The notes below the pieces were generated by a model. That model made no database searches. It was not told the origin of the DNA and was given only the letters and a program-made list of their open reading frames with translations. From Elusimicrobiota bacterium (GTDB lineage: Bacteria; Elusimicrobiota; Elusimicrobia; UBA1565; UBA9628): a stretch of DNA of 45,794 nucleotides. How positions within the stretch are numbered: the stretch's first letter is position 1; each line of letters begins with the position of its first letter. Made by a program: the position numbers and the translations under genes. The DNA is taken from the NCBI GenBank assembly GCA_016182905.1, contig JACPFR010000017.1, positions 1-45,794 of the forward strand, given 5' to 3'. Shown here one piece after another: positions 33,892 to 44,990 of this stretch.

Positions 33892-35403
33892 TTAGTACAG
33901 GTTCGAGGCGCGGCGGGCGCCGGTGTAATCGAGGAACACCGTCTTCTGCTCGGTGAAGAAGTGCATGCCTTCCTTCGCCATCTCGCGCTCGCCGACGCCG
34001 GAGCCCTTCACGCCGCCGAAGGGCACCTGGGCCTCGCCGCCGATGGTGGGGCTGTTGAGATGCACCATCCCCGCCTCGATCTCTTCCGTGAAACGCATCG
34101 CGAGGGTCAGATCCTGGGAGTAGAACGCGCAGGTCAGGCCGAACGGGCAGTCGTTGGCCAGCTCGACGGCCTTGTCGAAGTCGTCGGTGCGCGTGACGGC
34201 CAGCACCGGGCCGAACACCTCTTCCTGCCACAGGCGCGACTTCGGGCTCACGCCGTCGAAGACGGTGGGCTCGACGAACCAGCCGTGGGCGAAGTCGCCG
34301 GTCGTGATCCGGTTCCCGCCGCACAGCAGGGTCGCCCCTTCTTTTTTGCCGATCTCGATGTATTCCAGGTCCGTCTTCATCTGGCTCTCGTCGACGGCCG
34401 GGCCCATGCCGCTGGTCTTGTCGAGGCCGGGGCCGACCTTGATCTTGGCCACCTCGGCGAGCAGCATCTTCAGGAACTGATCGGCGATCTTCGTATGAAG
34501 GATCAGCCGCGAGGTGGCCGTGCAGCGCTGGCCGGTGGAGCCGAACGCGCCCTTCATGACGCCCGCGAGCGCCAGCTCGAGGTCGGCGTCGTCCCAGATG
34601 ACGGCCGGGTTCTTGCCGCCCATCTCGCAGACGACGGGGATGCCGCGCGCGCCCGCGATCGTGTGGACGCGCTTGCCGATCTCGTTGGAGCCGGTGAACG
34701 ACACGGCCTTGATGCGCGGCTCCTCGACGAGGACGTCGCCCATGGCCGAGCCCGCGCCCATCACGAGGTTGAGCACGCCCGGCGGCAGGCCGGCGTCCTC
34801 GAACGCCTTGACGATGCCCACGGCCAGCGCGGGCACGAGCGAGGCGGGCTTGAAGACGACGGTGCAGCCGGAGATCAGGGCCGGGGCGATCTTCCACGCC
34901 GGGATCGCGAACGGGAAGTTCCAGGGCGTGATGATGGAGACGACGCCGCGCGGGTGGCGGGTGGTATAGAGGAGGTTCTTGGCGAGCTCGGAGGGCTGCG
35001 TGACGCCGCCCATGCGCAGGCCCTCGCCGGCGAACCATTCGATGAGGGTGATGCCCTTCTCCATCTCGCCGAGCGCCTCGGGCAGGATCTTGCCCTGCTC
35101 GAGCGACATCAGGCGGGCCAGCTCTTCCTTCCGCTCGCGCAGGATGAGGGCGGCCTTCATCAGGATGCGCCCGCGCGCGGGCGCGGTCGTCGCCTTCCAC
35201 GCCGGGAACGCCGCCTGAGCCGCGTCGATGGCGCGCAGGACGTCGGTCTTGTCGGCGCCCTTGAGCTTGGCCAGGACCTGGCGGTTGTCGGCGGGGTTCG
35301 TCGAGACGATCTCTTTGGAGGACGAGCCCTCCACCCATTTCCCGGCGATGTACTGCTTCAGAACGGAGACTTCGGGCGTCGTCTTGGTCGCGGTGGGGAT
35401 CAT
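33892..35403 (-). CDS. NAD(P)-dependent aldehyde dehydrogenase (semialdehyde type)
   Basis: Oxidises an aldehyde to the acid. The 503-aa protein has the full ALDH layout: ITPWNFPFAIPAWK (cofactor and Asn), FTGSNEIGKRV, the general base Glu260 in CEMGGKNP, the nucleophile Cys294 in GSTGQRCTAT, and EEVFGPVLAV. It resembles the succinate-semialdehyde / alpha-ketoglutarate-semialdehyde branch. In context it could oxidise 4-aminobutanal, succinate semialdehyde or malonate semialdehyde from the two aminotransferases. Start at 35403: TATAAT ends 6 nt before it, making a leaderless message likely and excluding the longer frame upstream. First gene of the operon. Confidence 0.92.
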   Translation of the reverse strand: MIPTATKTTPEVSVLKQYIAGKWVEGSSSKEIVSTNPADNRQVLAKLKGADKTDVLRAIDAAQAAFPAWKATTAPARGRILMKAALILRERKEELARLMSLEQGKILPEALGEMEKGITLIEWFAGEGLRMGGVTQPSELAKNLLYTTRHPRGVVSIITPWNFPFAIPAWKIAPALISGCTVVFKPASLVPALAVGIVKAFEDAGLPPGVLNLVMGAGSAMGDVLVEEPRIKAVSFTGSNEIGKRVHTIAGARGIPVVCEMGGKNPAVIWDDADLELALAGVMKGAFGSTGQRCTATSRLILHTKIADQFLKMLLAEVAKIKVGPGLDKTSGMGPAVDESQMKTDLEYIEIGKKEGATLLCGGNRITTGDFAHGWFVEPTVFDGVSPKSRLWQEEVFGPVLAVTRTDDFDKAVELANDCPFGLTCAFYSQDLTLAMRFTEEIEAGMVHLNSPTIGGEAQVPFGGVKGSGVGEREMAKEGMHFFTEQKTVFLDYTGARRASNLY

Positions 35404-35409
35404 GACGGT

Positions 35410-35507: not shown

Positions 35508-35526
35508 TCACTTTCGGCGAAAGTGA
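35508..35526. promoter_or_regulatory. 19-bp palindrome over the start codon of the HNH-like gene
   Basis: TCACTTTCG-G-CGAAAGTGA is a perfect 9-bp-arm palindrome and includes the GTG at 35523. A strong AGGGGAGG (35491-35498) lies 24 nt before that GTG, with the hairpin between them. As RNA the hairpin would bring the ribosome site closer to later GTGs (35532, 35541). As DNA it could bind a dimeric regulator. Confidence 0.45.
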
Positions 35527-36470
35527 ACAATGTGAATAGAGTGGATATCTTCCGGCTGAGCGACGAAGAATTATGGCGCGGTCTCAAGGCCCTCGCGGCT
35601 CGCGAGCGCGTGCTCGCGGCGGACGCCGTGGCTTACGTGGCGGAGACGCAACGGCGAAAACTCCATGAAGATCATGGATGGCGCTCGATGTTCGAGTATT
35701 GCGTCCAGTCGCTGCGCTGGAGCGAGGCGACGGCATACCGCCGAACGCGAGCCGCGAGGGCCGTGCTCGACTACCCCGCCATTCTTGAGATGCTCTATGA
35801 CGGACGGCTTCATATCGAGGGGGTCGTGATCCTTTCCGCTTTCCTCCCGGACGCCGATTTCCCGGCGCTCCTTCTCAAGGCGGTGGGCATGACCACGAAG
35901 AACATAGAGCGTCTCGTCGCCGACCGGCGCCCCGATCCGCCGGTCAGGGACTCCATACGGTTCGTCGGGGCCGCTCCGCCTCCGGTCAGGATCGAGGAGC
36001 CGCCCCCGGCGCTCGCTCTTTCGCTCAGCCGCCCACCGGACCATCCGAATCCGCCGGACGCCGCTCCCTCGCGTCAGGCAGCGGTGGCCGAGCCGCCTTC
36101 CCCGCCCATCGAGGACGCCGAGTTGCCGGCGGCATCCGATCCTCCGCCGAGCCGTCCGCCCGAAGATCTGTGCCCGCCGAGCGCCGCGCCTTTGCGGCCG
36201 GCGGAGGTTCCCGTTCGGGCGAGGCTCGTGCGAGTGGCCTTTACCGCGGACGAAGGCCTGCATCGCCTGGTCCTGCATGCCCAGCAGCTGATGCGCCACA
36301 AATATCCCGACGGCAGCCTCGAGGGCATCTTCCGCGACGCGCTGCGTCTCCTCATCGCGAAAAAGGACCTGGGCGTCCGGGCGGCGGCCGCCGCCGCCCG
36401 GCGAATGAGGCGAAAAATAATGAGGAAGCCGAAAAAATCCCCCCTTGAAACCGTCGGAAACCGGGGCTAA
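35523..36470 (+). CDS. HNH-endonuclease-family N-terminal region without the HNH domain
   Basis: 315 residues. The N-terminal part (about 8-145: ALAARERVLAADAVAYVAETQRRK, WRSMFEYCVQSLRWSEATAYRRTRAAR, GRLHIEGVVILSAFL) matches the helical region found before the nuclease domain in a large family of bacterial HNH proteins. A Pro-rich linker (about 160-235) follows, then the family's VRVAFTADEGLHRLVLHAQQLMRHKYPDGSLEGIFRDALRLLI segment (about 238-280). In relatives the HNH domain comes next; here the protein ends in basic residues and the next gene starts 9 bases later, so no HNH motif is present. Starts at a GTG; exact start uncertain. DNA binding is likely, cleavage is not. Confidence 0.7.
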   Translation: MNNVNRVDIFRLSDEELWRGLKALAARERVLAADAVAYVAETQRRKLHEDHGWRSMFEYCVQSLRWSEATAYRRTRAARAVLDYPAILEMLYDGRLHIEGVVILSAFLPDADFPALLLKAVGMTTKNIERLVADRRPDPPVRDSIRFVGAAPPPVRIEEPPPALALSLSRPPDHPNPPDAAPSRQAAVAEPPSPPIEDAELPAASDPPPSRPPEDLCPPSAAPLRPAEVPVRARLVRVAFTADEGLHRLVLHAQQLMRHKYPDGSLEGIFRDALRLLIAKKDLGVRAAAAAARRMRRKIMRKPKKSPLETVGNRG

Positions 36471-36478: not shown

Positions 36479-36982
36479 ATGGATAAGACTGCCCCCCTCG
36501 CCGCTCTTTTCCTGTCCTTCGCCGCGCTGCCCGCCGCCGCCGAGTTCTGCGCCTTCGACGGCAGCCGCACCGAGATCGTCGTCCGGCGCCTGAAGGGGCC
36601 GGCCTGCACGATGGAGAACGCCCTCGTCTTCAACGCCGCCGCCAACGAGAACCGCTACGGCGCCGACGAGAACAAGCGCACCTTCCTGACCGACTCCTGG
36701 CCGGGCTGGGGCGGCTCCGACAAGAAGTGCGCGGCGGCGCGCAAGAGCGCCGACAATCTCGTCTACAGCGACGAGACCTACATCCTCGGCAAGGCCGTGC
36801 TGATGGGCCCCCAGGTGTGGAGATTCAACGGCTCCTGCGACGCGTTCAAGTCGCGGTTCGAGTCGAAGAAGCGCTCGCTCGGCGACAAGCCGTCGCACGA
36901 GGACGTCTTCGAGGCCGCCGGCGCCGAGCGCATCGACATGGGCGACCTGGCCGAGCGTCTCGTCGAGGGCAAGAAGAAGTAG
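36479..36982 (+). CDS. Small secreted protein with four cysteines
   Basis: 167 residues with a signal peptide (LAALFLSFAALPAAAEF, cleavage near residue 21). The mature part has four cysteines (FCAFD, PACTM, KKCAA, GSCDAF) that could form two disulfides, and conserved-looking aromatic stretches (LTDSWPGWGGSDKKC, GPQVWRFNGSCDAFKSRFESKKR). Basic C-terminus ending KKK. No family recognised. Leaderless promoter of its own; convergent with the caspase gene, 3 bases apart. Confidence 0.65.
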   Translation: MDKTAPLAALFLSFAALPAAAEFCAFDGSRTEIVVRRLKGPACTMENALVFNAAANENRYGADENKRTFLTDSWPGWGGSDKKCAAARKSADNLVYSDETYILGKAVLMGPQVWRFNGSCDAFKSRFESKKRSLGDKPSHEDVFEAAGAERIDMGDLAERLVEGKKK

Positions 36983-36985
36983 GGG

Positions 36986-38179
36986 CTACGGCGCGAGCAG
37001 CGGCTCGCCCAGCGCGGTCCCCGCGAGCACCGGCGTCTGCTCCCGGTTCTCCCTTCGCGCGTCGTCCTGCACGCGAGGCCTCAGGTAGTCGAACAGCGAC
37101 TTCGCGCTCGCCCTAGGGTCGGCGGACAGGCCCTTGAGCAGGTGATAGGTGAACAGGCCGTGGCTCTGCTCCGCGAGCGTCCCCGTGATCTCGTCGCCGG
37201 AGGCGGCGGCGAGTATGGTCAGCCGTCCTTCCGACGGGGCGAGCTCCGCGGCCTTGGCGACGAGCGGACGCGCGCCCTGGGCGAGCACGGAGCGTTCCCC
37301 CGCCCCCGAGAAGCAGGCGTCGAGGGCGACGATGACGCGCTTGGCCTTGGTCTTCGCCAGGCTCGCGTAGAGCGTCTTCAAGGGCAGCGCTGTGGACTTC
37401 AGGAACTTGGGGTCGCCGTCCCACGGCACGAGGTACGCCTCCCCCGTCTTGGCGTCGGGGGCGCCGTGGCCGGAGTAGTAGACGAACAAAGTCGAGCTCG
37501 CCTTCACGTTGAGCGGCAGCCACTCCTCGAGATAGCTCCTGAGCTTGCTGCCCGTCGCCTGGGAGCCTTCGAGCGAGATGACGTTGCGCGCCGGGAAGCC
37601 CAGCGCCTCGAGGTGGCGGCGCATCGTCCTCGCGTCGCGCGCGCCGAAATCCGCCTTGGGCAGGCTCTGGTACTCCTCGATGCCGATCACCAGCGCGAAG
37701 TCGTCCGGGCGCTCGGCGCCGCGGCGCGCGGGCGAGTCGATGTCGGAGGTCGGCTCGGCCTTCCGGGGCGCGGGCTCGGGGGCCGGCGCGGCGGGCGCGG
37801 CGGCGTGACGGGCTTCCGGGACCTCGTCGGGCAGGCCCTGCGCCTTGCGCTCCGCCTTCTCGAGCAGCTTGGCGATGCCCCCGATGTTCCGGTGGGACAG
37901 GGCCGCCTCGCGGGGCGTGCCGTAGATGCTGGAGGCGAAGACGTCCGCGCCCCCGTCGATCAGGGCCTGGGCGGAGGCTTGGGCGCCGTTCATCGCGGCG
38001 AAATGGAGGGGCGTCAGCTTCCCGAGGCCGACGGTGCTGTTGACCTTGGCGCCCTGAGACAGCAGGGCGCGGATCCCGGAGGCGTCGTTGGTCCTGGCCG
38101 CCAGGTGCAGCCCGCGGTCGCCGGCGCAGCCCGTCGCGAGGAAGGCCGCCAGAGGAAGGATCAGAGCGATTCGGTTCAT
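36986..38179 (-). CDS. Ankyrin-caspase lipoprotein, copy 1
   Basis: 397 residues. A lipoprotein-like signal (lipobox ATGC, Cys18) places it outside the cytoplasm. Two to three ankyrin-type repeats follow (about 22-115: LLSQGAKVN, LTPLHFAAMNGAQASAQALIDGGADV), then a Pro/Ala linker (120-150) and a caspase-like peptidase C14 domain (about 158-375). The His/Cys dyad is intact: His238 in YYSGHGAP and Cys289 in ALDACFSG. Family members cut after Arg/Lys or Asp; the specificity here is unknown. It is a tandem paralogue of the next gene; the caspase halves are nearly the same, the ankyrin halves differ. Confidence 0.88.
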   Translation of the reverse strand: MNRIALILPLAAFLATGCAGDRGLHLAARTNDASGIRALLSQGAKVNSTVGLGKLTPLHFAAMNGAQASAQALIDGGADVFASSIYGTPREAALSHRNIGGIAKLLEKAERKAQGLPDEVPEARHAAAPAAPAPEPAPRKAEPTSDIDSPARRGAERPDDFALVIGIEEYQSLPKADFGARDARTMRRHLEALGFPARNVISLEGSQATGSKLRSYLEEWLPLNVKASSTLFVYYSGHGAPDAKTGEAYLVPWDGDPKFLKSTALPLKTLYASLAKTKAKRVIVALDACFSGAGERSVLAQGARPLVAKAAELAPSEGRLTILAAASGDEITGTLAEQSHGLFTYHLLKGLSADPRASAKSLFDYLRPRVQDDARRENREQTPVLAGTALGEPLLAP

Positions 38180-38189
38180 GGCATCTCCG

Positions 38190-39317
38190 TTAGAACTTCG
38201 CGTCGGCCCCGCTTCCGGCCAAGGTCGGGGACTGCTCCCGGTTCTGGCGGCGCGCGTCGTCCTGCACGCGGGGCTTCAGGTAATCATACAAGCCGCGGGG
38301 CGTCGCCGCTCCCCCCTGCAGGGCTTTAAGGAAGTGGTAGGTGAAGATCCCGTGGCCCTGCTCGTCGAGGGAGCCGGTGATCTCCGCGCCGGAGGCGGCG
38401 GCGAGCACGGTGAGGTTGGCCGCGGCGGGCACGCTCTCGTCCACCTTCGCGACGAGCGGGCGGGCGCCCTTGGCCAGCACCGAGCGGCCCCCGGAGCCGG
38501 AGAAGCAGGCGTCGAGGGCCACGAGCACGCGCTTGGCCTTGAGCTTGGACAGCTCCGCATAGAACTGCTTCAGCGGGTAGGCGGAGGTCGTCAGGAACAT
38601 GGGATCGGCGTCCCACGGCACGAGGTAGGCGTCCCCGTTCTCGGGGTCGGGGGCGCCGTGGCCGGAGTAGTACACGAACACCGTCGACTCGGGCTTGACG
38701 TTGCGCGGCAGCCACTGCTGGAGATAGTTCTTGAGCTTGCTGCCCGTGGCCTGCGAGCCCTCGAGGCTGATGATGTTGCGCGCGGGCACGCCCATGGACT
38801 CGAAGTGCCTGCGCACGGTCGCGGCGTCGCGCGCGCCGAAGTCGGCTTTGGGCAAAGACTGATAGTCCTCTATGCCGATCACGAGGGCGAAGTCGTCGGG
38901 ACGAGGGGCGCCGTGGCGCGAAGGCGAATCCACGTCGGATGACGGCGCCCGCCGCTCTGGGCCGGGGGCCTCGGCATGGGACGATGGCGCCTTGCCCAGC
39001 GCCCGTTCCAGCATCGCGATCACCGCCGCGTCGCGGTTCGCCGCCTGAGCCCTCGCCAAAGCGGTGCGGCCCGAATTGTCCGTGAGGCGAGGATCGGCTC
39101 CATGATCGAGCAGGAAGCGCACAGTGTCCGGATGGCCCTGCTCGGCCGCGAACATGAGAGCGGTGGACCCAATGAGATTCCGTTTATCGACGGGCACGCC
39201 TTTGTCCAGGACGGCTTGGATGTCCCGGTTCTTGCCGTCGTAGCCGGCTTGGTGGATGCTGATGCAGCCGGAAGCGAAGGGCAGCGCGAGAACGAGTGCT
39301 GCAAGCAAGCGGTTCAT
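38190..39317 (-). CDS. Ankyrin-caspase lipoprotein, copy 2
   Basis: 375 residues with the same plan as its neighbour: lipobox-like ASGC (Cys18), ankyrin repeats (about 25-108, IGSTALMFAAEQGHPDTVRFLLDHGADP), short linker, caspase domain (about 140-360) with His220 in YYSGHGAP and Cys271 in ALDACFSG. Shared blocks such as LVIGIE-YQSLPKADFGARDA and ISLEGSQATGSKL are almost identical between copies, so the duplication is recent or held by conversion. It starts 4 bases after the dihydropyrimidinase gene and 10 bases before copy 1, so both caspases appear to ride on the pyrimidine operon. Confidence 0.88.
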   Translation of the reverse strand: MNRLLAALVLALPFASGCISIHQAGYDGKNRDIQAVLDKGVPVDKRNLIGSTALMFAAEQGHPDTVRFLLDHGADPRLTDNSGRTALARAQAANRDAAVIAMLERALGKAPSSHAEAPGPERRAPSSDVDSPSRHGAPRPDDFALVIGIEDYQSLPKADFGARDAATVRRHFESMGVPARNIISLEGSQATGSKLKNYLQQWLPRNVKPESTVFVYYSGHGAPDPENGDAYLVPWDADPMFLTTSAYPLKQFYAELSKLKAKRVLVALDACFSGSGGRSVLAKGARPLVAKVDESVPAAANLTVLAAASGAEITGSLDEQGHGIFTYHFLKALQGGAATPRGLYDYLKPRVQDDARRQNREQSPTLAGSGADAKF

Positions 39318-39321
39318 ATTC

Positions 39322-40719
39322 TCAGTTGAACGCGCGCGGCATCCTCTTCAGGAAGCGGCCGTGCTTTGTCGATCCTGCCCACTTGCCGTCGAGGACCATC
39401 GCCTCGCCGCGGGAGAACACGTCGCGGATGCTGCCCTTGACCGTGACGCCCTCGTAGGGGTTGTAGTCGGCGGCGCTGTGGTGGCTCTTCTGCGAGAAGG
39501 TGAAGGGCTTGTTCGGGTCGATGATGACGATGTCGGCGTCGGCGCCCGGGTTGAGGTGGCCTTTGCGCGGGTGCAGTCCGAACAGCTTCGAGGGGTTGAG
39601 CGAGGTGATCTCGACGAAGCGGTTCTCGGTGATCTTCCCCTTTTGGACGGCGTCCCACAGGAGGAGCATGCGGTATTCGACGCCGGGGGCGCCGTTGGGG
39701 ATTTTGGCGAAGTTCTTCTTGCCGAGCTCCTTGCCGGGCTGATTGGTCTTGGCCTTCATGCAGAAGGAGCAGTGATCGGTGGAAACGACTTGGAGATCAT
39801 TGCGGACGAGCCCTTTCCACAAGCGCTCCGAATTTCCGCTGGGCCTCAAAGGCGGAGACATCACGAATTTCGCCCCCTCGAAGCCGGGACGGCGGTAGTC
39901 GTCCTCGGACAGATACAGGTATTGAGGACACGTCTCGGCGTAGACCGGCAAACCTCTCGCTCTTGCGGCGCGGACTTCCTCCATGGCGTCGCCGGCGGAG
40001 AGATGGACGAAGTAGATCGGAACGCCCGCCATCTCGGCCAAGGCGATGGCGCGGTGGGTGGCCTCGGCTTCGGCGGTCATGGGGCGCGTGAGCGCGTGCC
40101 ACTCGGGGGCCGTTTTACCTTCGGCGATCGCCTTCTGGATGAGAACGTCGATGACCGAACCATTTTCGGCATGCATGCAGATCATCCCGCCGTTGTCGCG
40201 GGTGCGCATGAGGGCGCGGAAGATCGTGGTGTCGTCCGACATGAAGATGCCGGGATACGCCATGAACAGTTTAAAGGAAGACACGCCCTCGTCGACGAGC
40301 TTGTCCATCTCCTTCTGCTGCTTCTCGGGGAAATCCGTCACGATCATGTGGAAGCCGTAGTCGACGGCGGACTTGCCGTCGGCGCGCTTGTGCCAGTCGT
40401 CGAGGGCGTGGCGGAAGGTCTCCCCCTTCTTCTGGATCGCGAAGTCGACGATGGAGGTGGTGCCGCCGAAGACGGCCGAGGTCGAGCCGGTCGTGAAGTC
40501 GTCGATCGTGGTGGCGCCCATGAAGGGCATGTCGAAATGGGTGTGGGCGTCGATGCCGCCGGGGATGACGACCTTGCCGCGGGCGTCGATCATGCGCTTG
40601 GCGGGCTCGGCGATCTTGCCGACGGAGACGACCTTGCCGCCGACGACGCCGATATCCGCGATGTAGGTGTCGGACGCGGAGACGAGCGTGCCGCCCTTGA
40701 CGATCAGATCATATGGCAT
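39322..40719 (-). CDS. Dihydropyrimidinase (D-hydantoinase family)
   Basis: Opens the ring of 5,6-dihydrouracil (or dihydrothymine) to N-carbamoyl-beta-alanine. Amidohydrolase of 465 aa with the complete binuclear metal site: His59-x-His61 in DAHTHFD, carboxylated Lys150 in SFKLFMAY, His183 in MHAENG, His239 in VHLSAG and Asp315 in STDHCSF. Substrate assignment as dihydropyrimidine rather than hydantoin rests on the neighbouring preTA and ureidopropionase. Good Shine-Dalgarno (GGAGAAGGAGA); the start overlaps the permease by 11 bases. Confidence 0.95.
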   Translation of the reverse strand: MPYDLIVKGGTLVSASDTYIADIGVVGGKVVSVGKIAEPAKRMIDARGKVVIPGGIDAHTHFDMPFMGATTIDDFTTGSTSAVFGGTTSIVDFAIQKKGETFRHALDDWHKRADGKSAVDYGFHMIVTDFPEKQQKEMDKLVDEGVSSFKLFMAYPGIFMSDDTTIFRALMRTRDNGGMICMHAENGSVIDVLIQKAIAEGKTAPEWHALTRPMTAEAEATHRAIALAEMAGVPIYFVHLSAGDAMEEVRAARARGLPVYAETCPQYLYLSEDDYRRPGFEGAKFVMSPPLRPSGNSERLWKGLVRNDLQVVSTDHCSFCMKAKTNQPGKELGKKNFAKIPNGAPGVEYRMLLLWDAVQKGKITENRFVEITSLNPSKLFGLHPRKGHLNPGADADIVIIDPNKPFTFSQKSHHSAADYNPYEGVTVKGSIRDVFSRGEAMVLDGKWAGSTKHGRFLKRMPRAFN

Positions 40720-42217
40720 AAGATTTCTCCTTCTCCGTCACCATGAGGAGCCAGTAGACGGCGAACGACAGGCCGAAGCTGATGAACCAGGCGTAGTGGT
40801 ACAGCGAGATCCAGAACGGCGCCACCGTCGCGAGCTTGACCGTGCCGAGGAAGCCGGGCAGGACCGGCAGGCAGGCCAGGACGAGGGCCACGAGCGCGCG
40901 GCCGTTCACGCCGCCGGCGTACCAGTAGGTGCCGTGCTTCTCGTACAGCTCGCGCACGTCGAGGTGCGCCCCTCTTAGGACGTAGTAGTCGCAGATGAGG
41001 ATGCCGCCGATCGACCCGAGCAGGGAGGAGTAGGCGACGAGCCAGGTGAAGATGTAGCCCGACGGGTCGGCGATCAGCTTCCAGGGCTGGATGAGGATGC
41101 CGATGACGCCGGTGATGTAGCCGCCCATGCGGAAGTCGATCTTCTCCGGCCAGATGTGGGAGAAGTCGTTGGCGGGGCCGACGACGTTGGCCGCGATGTT
41201 GGTGGCCAAGGTCGCGATGCACAGGGAGATCAGCGCGACCGCGAGGACGAACGGGTTCTGGAACTTCGCGATGAGGTCGACGGGGTCCCAGATGGACTGG
41301 CCGTAGATCACGACGGTGGCCGAGGTGACCGCCACGCCGATGAAGGAGTACAGGCCCATCGTCGTCGGCAGGCCCAGGGCCTGGCCCAGCATCTGGTCCC
41401 TCTGGGTCTTCGCGTAGCGCGAGAAGTCCGGGATGTTGAGCGACAAGGTCGCCCAGAAGCCGATCATCGCGGTCAGCGCCGGGAAGAAGAACGGCCAGAA
41501 CCGGCCCTCCTTGGGCTGCCCGGGCGCGAAGGCGGACGGGGTGGAGAGCATGTGGCCGAAGCCGCCCGCCTGGACGTAGGCCCAGCCGAGGAGCGCCAGG
41601 CCGAGGGCGATGAGCAGGGGAGCCTTGACGTTGAGGAGGATGCGGATGGACTCCACGCCCTTGTAGATGACGAGCATGTTGATCGCCCAGAAGAAGAGGA
41701 AGCAGGCCCATTGGCCGACGTTCAAGCCCTGTAACACCGGCTCGCCGGCCAGCATGGCGGGATGCCAGATGCCCACGAGCTTGTAGATCGCCGCCCCGCC
41801 GATCCAGGCCTGGATGCCGAACCAGCCGCAGGCCACGAGGGCGCGCAGCACGGCCGGCACGTTGGCGCCGAGTATGCCGAACGCCGGGCGGCAGTACACG
41901 GGGTACGGGATGCCGTACTTGGTGCCCGCGTGCGCGTTGAGCACCATCGGCAGCAGCACGATGCAGTTGCCGAGGAAGATGGTCAGGACGGCCTGCCACC
42001 AGTTCATCCCCTCCGAGATCAGCGACGAGGCGAGCATGTACGTCGGTATGCACGCGCTCATGCTGATCCAGAGGACGGCGATGTCCTTGGTGCCCCAGGT
42101 GCGCTCCGCCTTGCGCGTGGGAGCGATGTCCTTGTTCCAGTACGGGGACTTCTCGATGGGCTCGGAGTGGTCGTGGATCTCCTTGTCCATCAGCGCCCTG
42201 AAGATCTTATCCCTCAC
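40709..42217 (-). CDS. NCS1 family nucleobase permease
   Basis: Imports a nucleobase or hydantoin with a cation. Polytopic (about 12 membrane segments, 502 aa). NCS1 features: KDIAVLWISMSACIPTYMLASSLI, then GTKYGIPYPVYCRPAFGILGANVP, and AANVVGPANDFSHIWPEKI near residue 350. In context uracil or thymine is the likely substrate, but allantoin- and hydantoin-type members look similar. Start taken at the GTG overlapping the ureidopropionase stop; the ATG at 42190 would give 493 aa. Confidence 0.93.
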   Translation of the reverse strand: MRDKIFRALMDKEIHDHSEPIEKSPYWNKDIAPTRKAERTWGTKDIAVLWISMSACIPTYMLASSLISEGMNWWQAVLTIFLGNCIVLLPMVLNAHAGTKYGIPYPVYCRPAFGILGANVPAVLRALVACGWFGIQAWIGGAAIYKLVGIWHPAMLAGEPVLQGLNVGQWACFLFFWAINMLVIYKGVESIRILLNVKAPLLIALGLALLGWAYVQAGGFGHMLSTPSAFAPGQPKEGRFWPFFFPALTAMIGFWATLSLNIPDFSRYAKTQRDQMLGQALGLPTTMGLYSFIGVAVTSATVVIYGQSIWDPVDLIAKFQNPFVLAVALISLCIATLATNIAANVVGPANDFSHIWPEKIDFRMGGYITGVIGILIQPWKLIADPSGYIFTWLVAYSSLLGSIGGILICDYYVLRGAHLDVRELYEKHGTYWYAGGVNGRALVALVLACLPVLPGFLGTVKLATVAPFWISLYHYAWFISFGLSFAVYWLLMVTEKEKSYAI

Positions 42218-43089
42218 GGCAGCAGCTGGGTGAGGGGTCCGTAGGTCTCCGGGCGCCGGTCGCGGAAGAACTGCCACACCTTGCGCACCTCGAGGATCTG
42301 GTCGAAGTCGAGGTCGGCGATGACGGTGGCGTCCTTGTCGTGCGGGCCGACCTTGAGCATCTGGCCGCGGGGGTCGCAGAAGTAGGACTGGCCGTAGAAC
42401 TCGCCGATGTTCCACGGGCCCTCCTTGCCGACGCGGTTGCTGGCGCCGACGAAGTACTGGTTGGCGACCGCGTGCGCGGGCTGCTCGAGCTTCCAGAGGT
42501 ACTCGGAGAGGCCCTTCACCGTGGCCGACGGGTTGAATACGATCTCGGCCCCGTTCAGCCCGAGGATGCGCGCCCCGTCCGGGAAGTGCCGGTCGTAGCA
42601 GATGTACACGCCGACCTTGGCGTAGCGGGTCTGGAACACCGGATAACCCAGGTTGCCCGGCTTGAAGTAGAACTTCTCCCAGAAGCCGGGGGCGCAGTGA
42701 GGGATGTGGTTCTTCCTATAGATGCCGGCGAGCGAGCCGTCCGCGTCGATGACCGCCGCGGTGTTGTAATAGGTGCCGGTCGACGGGGTCTCGTAGATCG
42801 GGGAGACGATGACCATCTGGTGCTTCTTGGCCAGGTCCTGCATCAGCTTCGTCGTCGGGCCGGTGATGGGCTCGGCGGTGTCGTACCACTTGACGTCCTG
42901 CTCGGCGCAGAAGTACGGGCCGTAGAAGATCTCCTGGAGGCTGAGCATCTGCACGCCCTTCTTGGCGGCGGCCTCGATCATGGCCACGTGCTTGTCGATC
43001 ATCTTCGACTTGATCTGCTGAAGGGAGTACTTCGGCGGGAGCCAGTCGCACTTCGTCTGGATGAGAGCGCATTTCACGATTCGAGCCAT
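42214..43089 (-). CDS. Beta-ureidopropionase (nitrilase superfamily)
   Basis: Hydrolyses N-carbamoyl-beta-alanine to beta-alanine, CO2 and NH3, the third step of reductive pyrimidine breakdown. The catalytic triad can be read: Glu53 in LQEIFYGPYF, Lys126 in YRKNHIPH, Cys164 in YICYDRHFP. FYGPYFCAEQD and the block HCAPGFWEKFYFKPGN are typical of the N-carbamoyl-beta-alanine amidohydrolase branch. Length is 291 aa. It has its own leader with GGAGG and a -10 (TAGAAT) at 43128-43133. Confidence 0.94.
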   Translation of the reverse strand: MARIVKCALIQTKCDWLPPKYSLQQIKSKMIDKHVAMIEAAAKKGVQMLSLQEIFYGPYFCAEQDVKWYDTAEPITGPTTKLMQDLAKKHQMVIVSPIYETPSTGTYYNTAAVIDADGSLAGIYRKNHIPHCAPGFWEKFYFKPGNLGYPVFQTRYAKVGVYICYDRHFPDGARILGLNGAEIVFNPSATVKGLSEYLWKLEQPAHAVANQYFVGASNRVGKEGPWNIGEFYGQSYFCDPRGQMLKVGPHDKDATVIADLDFDQILEVRKVWQFFRDRRPETYGPLTQLLP

Positions 43090-43185: not shown

Positions 43186-43683
43186 TTAGGAGGAGATGCG
43201 GCGGTTGAGCTGGGCGAGGCGCTCGACGACGGGCGGCACGCCGAAGAAGCGCTTCTCGAAGTGGAGGACGGTGCTGTCGTCGATGGGTAGGCGCAGCTGG
43301 TAGGTGTTGTCCTCCTCGCTGTGCTCGAACTGGGTGCCGTAGGTCTGCGGCAGGCCGATGGACATGAGGAAGCGGTCGAGGGTCGCCGCGGCGAGCCAGC
43401 GCGACGGGCGGTGGCCGTTGATCGACGCGATCGTCGCCAGGCGGTGCGCCGTGAGGAACTCCTTGGGCTCGGTGCCGTGCAGGAAGAGGACCGCGGCGTG
43501 GTACAGGTCGTTGGAGGTGTTGACCGCGCCCTGGCCGATCATGGAGACGAGCTCGCGGCGGCGCTCGGCGTCCCGGAGCTTGAGGGCGTCGACGTCGGCG
43601 GCGGTGCCGTACACCTTCTCGCGGTCCTTCTGGTCGGTCGCGAACAGCTCGTCGAGTCTCAGGTTGTCGGTTTCGGGAGGCAT
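43186..43683 (-). CDS. Hypothetical protein in the pyrimidine operon
   Basis: 165 residues, no signal peptide or membrane segment, so cytoplasmic. Recognisable lines are DAERRRELVSMIGQGAVNTSNDLYHAAVLFLHG, AHRLATIASINGHRPSRWLAAATLDRFLMSIGLPQTYGTQ, which recall a family of uncharacterised proteins with an 'AALIFQHG / ATLDR / PQ-GTQ' pattern (perhaps DUF6624-like; not certain). It begins one base after the preA stop, so it is probably in the preT-preA transcript. Role unknown. Confidence 0.65.
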   Translation of the reverse strand: MPPETDNLRLDELFATDQKDREKVYGTAADVDALKLRDAERRRELVSMIGQGAVNTSNDLYHAAVLFLHGTEPKEFLTAHRLATIASINGHRPSRWLAAATLDRFLMSIGLPQTYGTQFEHSEEDNTYQLRLPIDDSTVLHFEKRFFGVPPVVERLAQLNRRISS

Positions 43684-43684
43684 G

Positions 43685-44990
43685 TTAATGGCGCCGGTAG
43701 ACTTCGCCGTACCCCTTCATCCCGTTCTTCGTGTAGTCCTCCCACGTCAGCGGCTTGAGTCCGGTGTCGACCGGCTTCATCGTGATGCAGCCGTCGACGG
43801 GGCAGACGAGCGAGCACAGGTTGCAGCCGACGCAGTCGTCCTGGAGGACGTGGGGCTTGCGGTTGCCCTTGCGGCGGTCGATGTCGATGCACTGATGCGT
43901 GGTGTCGTTGCAGGAGACGTAGCAGACGTCGCAGGAGATGCACGTTGCCGGGTCGATGGAGGCTACGCTCATGTAGTGGAGGTTGAGCTTCTTGCAATCC
44001 ACGATCCTGGGGGCGGTCTTGCCGATGAAGTCGGCGGTCTTGGCGAACTTCTGCCGGCGCATCCAGCCCTCGAGGCCGGCGTTCAGGTCCTCGACGATGC
44101 GGTAGCCGTGATGCATTACTGCCGTACAAAGCTGTACGGGATGAAGACCCTAAGAGCATGAATTCAACGGCATCCGACCAGATCGAAATCCCGCCGATGC
44201 CGGATATGGGAAGCCCTACCGTCTCAGGATCGGTCGCTATCTGGCTGACCATGTTCAAGGCGATGGGTTTGACCGCGGGGCCGCAGTAGCCGCCGTGGGA
44301 AATCTTGCCCTCGACGGAGAACTTGGGGATCATGGTCTCGACGTCGATGCCCATGATGGAGTTGATCGTGTTGATGAGGGACACGCCGTCGGCCCCCCCC
44401 TGCTTGGCCGCGCGCGCGGCGAAGCGCACGTCGGCGACGTTCGGGGTGAGCTTGACGAGGACGGGGATGGTGGAGACCTCTTTGACGAACTCGGTGACCA
44501 TCTTCACGTACTCGGGCACCTGCCCGACGGCCGCGCCCATGCCGCGCTCGGACATCCCGTGCGGGCAGCCGAAGTTGAGCTCGATGCCGTCGCTGCCGGC
44601 GTCGATGACCTTCTTCGTGATCTCGTGCCAGGCCTGCTTCTCGCAGGGGACCATGAGGGAGGCGATCACGGCGCGGTCTCCGAAGCGCTTCTTGACCTCG
44701 TAGATCTCCTTGAGGTTGGTCTCCAGAGGCCGGTCGGTGATCAGCTCGATGTTGTTGAATCCCGCGAGCTTCTGTGTGCCGAGGTCCATGGAGCCGTAGC
44801 GCGAGGAGACGTTGACGACGGGCGGGTCCTGTCCGAGCGTCTTCCACACCGCGCCGCCCCAGCCGTACTCGAAGGCGCGCATGATCTGCGCGCCGGAGTT
44901 CGTGGGCGGGGCCGAGGCGAGCCAGAACGGGTTGGGGGACTTGATGCCGGCGCAGTTCACAGAGAGGTCGGGCTTGAGTCGGGGCTTCAT
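43685..44990 (-). pseudogene. preA: preA, dihydropyrimidine dehydrogenase catalytic subunit, with a one-base frameshift
   Basis: PreA reduces uracil or thymine with NADH. Residues 1-283 (flavin-binding TIM barrel: FWLASAPPTNSG, ELNFGCPHGMSERGMGAA, LVKLTPNV, SGIGGISIW) read in frame from 44990. Just after EFMLLGSSS the frame is lost: dropping one C of the CCC at 44140-44138 (minus strand) restores SVQLCTAVMHHGYRIVED and the two 4Fe-4S clusters (CISCDVCYVSC, CVGCNLCSLVCPV) down to the stop at 43685. The flavin and ferredoxin parts are otherwise intact. A 7-bp hairpin, CCGTACA-GCTT-TGTACGG, starts at the CCC. The ferredoxin half also has its own ATG at 44116 (143 aa). Overlaps preT by one base (TGATG). 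Confidence 0.85.

Follow-up and report, generated by a model that had tools for sequence, protein, structure and literature searches.

The window, that is, the whole 45,794-nucleotide stretch analysed, comes from a 3.98-Mb Elusimicrobiota genome assembled into 63 contigs and carries on its minus strand two adjacent genes for predicted ankyrin-caspase lipoproteins, referred to here as copy 1 (P0001) and copy 2 (P0002). The genes and their parts are as follows:

38190–39317, minus strand: copy 2 (P0002, 375 aa), predicted ankyrin-caspase lipoprotein, starting 4 bases past the dihydropyrimidinase
39264–39317, minus strand: P0002 signal peptide (residues 1–17) and lipobox Cys18 (FASG-C), called by motif rule alone
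38988–39263, minus strand: P0002 ankyrin module, residues ~19–110 (Pfam Ank_2, E 3.4e-12; AF2 and Foldseek)
38943–39327, minus strand: replaced module of copy 2, extending from the start region through signal peptide and ankyrin module into the linker; no DNA match in the sister species G003, against 89–93% identity for the core and both flanks
38193–38894, minus strand: P0002 caspase-fold core, residues 142–375 (Pfam; fold match to T. brucei metacaspase 2)
38658–38660, 38505–38507, 38511–38513 and 38826–38828, minus strand: P0002 core residues His220, Cys271, Asp269 and Asp164, respectively
36986–38179, minus strand: copy 1 (P0001, 397 aa), predicted ankyrin-caspase lipoprotein, starting 10 bases past copy 2
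38126–38179, minus strand: P0001 signal peptide (residues 1–17) and lipobox Cys18 (LATG-C), called by motif rule
37850–38125, minus strand: P0001 ankyrin module, residues ~19–110 (Pfam Ank, E 4.6e-9)
36989–37702, minus strand: P0001 caspase-fold core, residues 160–397 (Pfam)
37466–37468, 37313–37315, 37319–37321 and 37634–37636, minus strand: P0001 core residues His238, Cys289, Asp287 and Asp182, respectively
39322–40719, minus strand: dihydropyrimidinase, conserved upstream neighbour (TIGR02033, 596.8 bits, above cut-off; syntenic in nine genomes)
40709–42307, minus strand: NCS1 nucleobase permease of the pyrimidine operon (TIGR00800, above cut-off)
42214–43089, minus strand: carbon-nitrogen hydrolase of the pyrimidine operon, probably a beta-ureidopropionase judging from its context (PF00795)
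43659–44990, minus strand: PreA-like dihydropyrimidine dehydrogenase subunit (NF006183, above cut-off)
33892–35406, minus strand: aldehyde dehydrogenase, flanking the caspase pair on its other side and likewise conserved

Both proteins had the same layout, namely a short basic start, a hydrophobic stretch, the lipobox Cys18, ankyrin repeats, an Ala/Pro-rich linker with SDxD.P at its end, and then the Peptidase_C14 core. The Peptidase_C14 profile (PF00656) matched P0001 and P0002 with E-values of 9.5e-19 and 6.9e-16 (68.4 and 59.1 bits, respectively; cut-off 21.4), the ankyrin repeats scored above the Pfam cut-off in both, and the catalytic dyad was intact (His238/Cys289 and His220/Cys271, respectively). 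The original prediction, made from the sequence of this locus, had described the pair as caspase-like proteases with intact His/Cys dyads, ankyrin repeats at their N-termini and export as lipoproteins, and each of these points was recovered, the last through the signal peptide and lipobox Cys18 that the motif rule predicts in both copies. The 4 bases that it had placed between the dihydropyrimidinase stop and copy 2 were also found (GAAT), and 10 bases separate copy 2 from copy 1. Its description of the catalytic halves as almost identical was overstated, since their identity was only 69.7% in protein (175/251; 74% in DNA), whereas the divergence that it had noted in the ankyrin halves was real, the mature N-terminal parts being 30.5% identical. 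A segment just past the catalytic Cys of P0002 (window 38450–38510) contains a highly conserved GGRSVL..GARPL, as does the equivalent part of other copies; self-processing might take place in this segment, or it might contribute to an active-site loop.

The AF2 model of P0002 (pLDDT 74.9, pTM 0.58) was of high quality in the ankyrin part, with pLDDT values of 80–95 across residues 21–110, and of low quality in the linker; its moderate confidence leaves the relative placement of module and core unfixed. Foldseek matched the N-terminal part to the designed ankyrin 1n0q (TM 0.90 by target), and the best match of the P0002 model was T. brucei metacaspase 2 (MCA2), followed by MALT1. The ~100 residues C-terminal of the Cys formed strands and helices in the model. 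MCA2 (PDB 4afv) resembles P0002 in its caspase fold and in carrying the His in an equivalent YSGHG motif, but it is eukaryotic, has no ankyrin module and shares only 20% sequence identity.

The caspase genes of the host genome numbered 13 by profile search and 14 by protein search, most of them with other N-terminal modules, and matches to the family were present in 62 of the 295 genomes of the phylum. Many genomes in the window's order had several copies (28 in G029), in comparison with the usual 0–2 copies per genome in other families of the class. From the fetched loci, we compiled a set of 142 distinct copies, one of which came from another phylum. The catalytic His was present in all 142 copies and the Cys in 139, and the Asp two residues before the Cys (DxC) and the Asp of the ARDA motif were each present in 142 of 142. 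These two Asp residues are expected to correspond to the S1-pocket residues of MCA2, and by analogy with metacaspases and orthocaspases the core is predicted to cleave after Arg or Lys. By the measure of substitution rates, the caspase core is under purifying selection: the dN/dS ratios of the two cores between the window genome and the sister species were 0.09 and 0.20, and that of the dihydropyrimidinase was 0.11.

Regarding export, 102 of the 142 N-termini had a lipobox, 38 had another signal-like start and 2 had neither, according to a motif rule that also helps to pick the start codon; of 123 ordinary ORFs in the same loci, 8 passed the lipobox rule. One of the 102 lipobox copies has Asp at position +2, the residue that keeps lipoproteins in the inner membrane in E. 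coli, and Lgt, LspA, LolA and Omp85 proteins are encoded in the host genome. The dyad and an export signal (140 of 142 copies) are thus kept in nearly all relatives, and the exported proteases of the original prediction hold up against the possibility that orthologues had lost the signal Cys or the catalytic residues.

The only three copies without the Cys (Ser or Gly in its place) were L109:4590-6122 (G006), L150:3520-5061 (G034) and L122:1875-3251 (G027), each of them the tandem neighbour of an intact copy. One such pair is conserved in G029, G006 and G034, and in two of these three genomes its second member is degenerate, which suggests pseudo-enzyme partners. The two copies without an export signal by the motif rule, L103:3856-4677 and L103:6694-7650 (both G011), may have wrong start codons or be truncated genes.

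An ankyrin-caspase pair had originally been regarded as unusual; instead, the window pair belongs to a family that has expanded and that carries many kinds of module. Ankyrin, one of these, was found by Pfam in 44 of the 137 N-termini that were long enough to scan, followed by Sel1 (8), PDZ (6), CARDB (3) and WD40 (2). When the N-termini were clustered with the shared linker cut away, many others formed clusters without a Pfam match, such as cluster m1 with 22 members, for whose fold a PDB profile search gave nothing better than E 0.2. The AF2 model of a G006 copy with a non-ankyrin module had a pLDDT below 50 in the module. Because most modules have no Pfam match, a role in recognition is extrapolated from the ankyrin, Sel1, PDZ and WD40 examples. 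Two of the modules, searched for as stand-alone forms in 19 genomes of the genus in a non-exhaustive search, occurred almost only in caspase-sized frames.

Judging from DNA comparisons of equivalent loci, the modules are replaced in place between related species. Between the window locus and that of the sister species G003, the flank from the dihydropyrimidinase upward was 93% identical and the copy 2 core 89%, and the segment of copy 2 between them (38943–39327) had no match in G003; P0001 keeps its module in the same comparison. Similarity was already reduced over the last 60 bases of the dihydropyrimidinase, which means that no precise cassette was exchanged. Loci L059 and L095 shared 95% identity as far as the ATG, which overlaps the preceding gene's stop codon (that gene being probably purF by sequence); beyond it, an unassigned module in one faced an ankyrin module in the other, and past the module, identity returned to 88% in the core and 87–91% in the downstream flank. 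At the RpiB locus (L055 and L099), the second of two tandem caspases differed in its module, with core and flanks in agreement, and L060 and L098 provided a fourth in-place case, in which the upstream flank alone was testable.

A strict table of same-locus pairs, which demanded flank DNA identity of at least 80% over 800 bases with caspase genes masked and core identity of at least 80%, contained 16 between-species pairs; these are not independent, six of them being comparisons among four genomes of the first caspase at the window locus. In ten pairs, fewer than 25% of the positions of the shorter module were identical, one pair stood at 26%, and the remaining five had a recognisably shared module. 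For this first caspase, the cores of the four species (the window genome, G003, G016 and G006) were 87–95% identical and the four modules were all different, three being ankyrin modules that are distantly alike and the fourth, in G006, having no Pfam match or detectable similarity.

The histories of module and core also came apart when the two were traced separately. The core of P0002 was closest to the G003 copy (95%), and its module was closest to that of a G011 copy (46% over 83 residues, Z 31), which is borne on a core only 65% identical. The clearest move between loci was seen in L061 and L098, both of them gene copies close to contig ends, where the modules were 83% identical and the cores 60%; the core of L098 was 90% identical to that of L060, which carries ankyrins. 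When mapped onto a maximum-likelihood core tree, the 16 module classes that have at least two members required a minimum of 41 changes among 109 rows, compared with a mean of 57 for shuffled labels, so exchange is frequent but not random. Nor is it universal, since five of the 16 strict pairs keep their module and the classes are partly conserved on the tree. The proposal that one protease had been given different recognition modules was therefore reinforced, both by replacement in situ between species and by the presence of one module at a second locus.

Dihydropyrimidinase, NCS1 permease, carbon-nitrogen hydrolase and PreA together constitute reductive pyrimidine degradation. In the nine genomes having the locus, the caspase began −4 to +10 bases past the dihydropyrimidinase; the sole outlying spacing (165, in L010) occurred where a stop codon, which may be a sequencing error, lies within the dihydropyrimidinase reading of that contig. 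Among testable family copies in general, 53 of 125 (42%) abutted an upstream ORF, that is, started −17 to +26 bases from the stop of a long upstream ORF, often with a 4-base overlap, in comparison with 5.9% of control positions; ten of the 53 upstream ORFs were another caspase, and some are probably spurious reading frames. The upstream ORFs with Pfam matches were diverse and included RpiB, RelA/SpoT, RF-1, a BMC protein, a CoA transferase and others. The position at the operon end, noted in the original prediction, was thus found conserved in nine genomes, whereas a specific functional link to pyrimidine catabolism was weakened, because copies sit equally tightly on unrelated genes. We set such a tie aside as not specific, as the abutted ORFs mostly have no relation to pyrimidines. 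Since family genes occupy the 3' ends of operons that have nothing in common, what the caspase pair gains from the pyrimidine operon is most likely expression rather than a functional partner.

Several other features were observed at this locus. On the plus strand, the gene at window 35523–36470, which is Pro-rich in its middle and matches DUF222 weakly, aligned poorly with the sister species (59% identity; neighbours 86–96%). Window 36479–36982, also on the plus strand, encodes a small predicted secreted protein without a clear family; it is convergent with the caspase pair, and G003 and G011 have it at the same locus. In G011, the caspase that comes first at the pyrimidine locus (L070:4789-5838) exits the usual frame just past the catalytic motif and is either a pseudogene or the product of a sequencing error.

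The closest known relatives are the orthocaspases or prokaryotic metacaspases (MEROPS C14; PMC3501461, PMC5756287), which share Peptidase_C14, the His/Cys dyad, a DxC Asp from which Arg/Lys specificity is expected, further interaction domains, several copies in one genome and, in some members, probable signal peptides. In contrast, nearly all the Elusimicrobiota copies have an export signal and most have a lipobox, and their modules are N-terminal and exchanged in place; additional orthocaspase domains are commonly C-terminal (reviewed in PMC5756287). A 2012 survey reported prokaryotic caspase homologues in 18% of genomes, with a maximum of 28 per genome in Haliscomenobacter and none in the few Elusimicrobia then available; it noted that N-terminal helices may be signal peptides, raised extracellular roles, and does not contain the word 'ankyrin' (PMC3501461). 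Given these probable signal peptides, a non-cytoplasmic location of caspase homologues is not new in itself. Our search of the open-licence literature returned no paper that describes an Elusimicrobiota caspase family or reports that bacterial caspases exchange modules.

EACC1-associated caspases (NF047832) and the caspases of conflict systems (PMC7159879, PMC8195603) have a bacterial caspase domain related by profile, but the window pair differs in its predicted export and has no such partner recognised adjacent to it. Membership among the EACC1-associated caspases was rejected on the NF047832 scores (88.2 and 71.5 bits, cut-off 140), as was a known anti-phage system, for which PADLOC gave generic caspase and ankyrin similarity only. 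In type I restriction HsdS subunits and polymorphic toxin systems, a constant part stays and the recognition or effector part is exchanged. The likeness lies in the logic of exchange only; the proteins are unrelated, and here it is the N-terminal module of a predicted exported protease that is swapped.

With respect to how the differing modules arose, very fast divergence in place, with no replacement, is very unlikely. The retained module of P0001 does outpace its core in the comparison with G003 (dN/dS of 0.34 and 0.20, respectively), and several of the non-matching pairs set ankyrin against ankyrin, but dN/dS was below 1 throughout, several pairs differ in the kind of module, DNA identity fell abruptly from 95% at a start codon, and the L061 and L098 modules are far more alike than the cores that bear them. 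Chimeric assembly of metagenome bins, by which unrelated N-termini would have been joined to similar cores, seems more improbable still: similar cores do recur as repeats inside one genome, and the L061 and L098 contigs end close to the gene, as such an artefact would have it, but L059/L095, L055/L099 and window/L064 are syntenic on both flanks in contigs of 30–70 kb, and the pattern recurs across assemblies with different isolate names and projects.

As for function, the explanation that we rank first, and hold with moderate confidence, is that of recognition-directed envelope proteases with an exchangeable targeting module. The window pair would belong to an Elusimicrobiota family of caspase-type cysteine proteases that are exported and for the most part anchored by lipid, and in which a constant catalytic core is combined with an exchangeable N-terminal module through a flexible Ala/Pro-rich linker with a conserved SDxD.P motif at its end. 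From the periplasm or the outer membrane, such a protein would bind a particular partner or ligand through its module, which would bring or unleash the core on that target to cut after Arg or Lys; modules would be swapped by recombination, among paralogues as well as related strains, and this would alter what the protease recognises. Ranked next, though rather unlikely, are general envelope or nutritional proteases whose exported cores degrade periplasmic or environmental protein and whose modules are anchors or spacers; siting beside pyrimidine, polyamine and aminotransferase genes would then reflect nitrogen scavenging. The nitrogen catabolism genes beside the window pair, the purifying selection on the core and the extracellular protein degradation suggested for bacterial metacaspases (PMC4933709) are all in keeping with this, but mere anchors need neither many unrelated folds nor repeated in-place replacement, and the nitrogen theme is absent from the copies behind RpiB, RelA/SpoT, RF-1 and BMC genes. 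Death or defence effectors, in which phage, toxin or contact with a neighbour is sensed at the envelope by the module and the caspase damages the cell's own envelope (abortive response) or the attacker, are possible but carry a lower probability. Diversification by module exchange would be typical of conflict systems, and the core is moderately similar to a PADLOC caspase model and, below the cut-off, to the EACC1-associated caspase model; against this, no defence genes were recognised beside the window pair, the upstream partners are housekeeping genes, and the PADLOC match amounts to generic caspase homology.

If recognition-directed envelope proteolysis is the function, a wider picture can be put forward tentatively, as a possibility rather than an expectation: a bacterial repertoire of envelope caspases, ~10–30 per genome, with modules continually reshuffled on a fixed core, may alter what is detected or cut at the cell surface. 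Such a repertoire would be comparable in logic to the exchange of specificity subunits or immune receptors. Bacterial caspase homologues have mostly been discussed as intracellular enzymes of death or stress, whereas in this Elusimicrobiota lineage the caspases are numerous, almost without exception have a predicted export signal, and carry a front-end domain that changes in place between sister species over a strongly constrained core. If the modules set the target, then the loci described here would hold natural matched chimeras, in which a single protease is paired at one locus with one recognition domain or another, so that the role of the extra domains in bacterial caspases would be directly testable.
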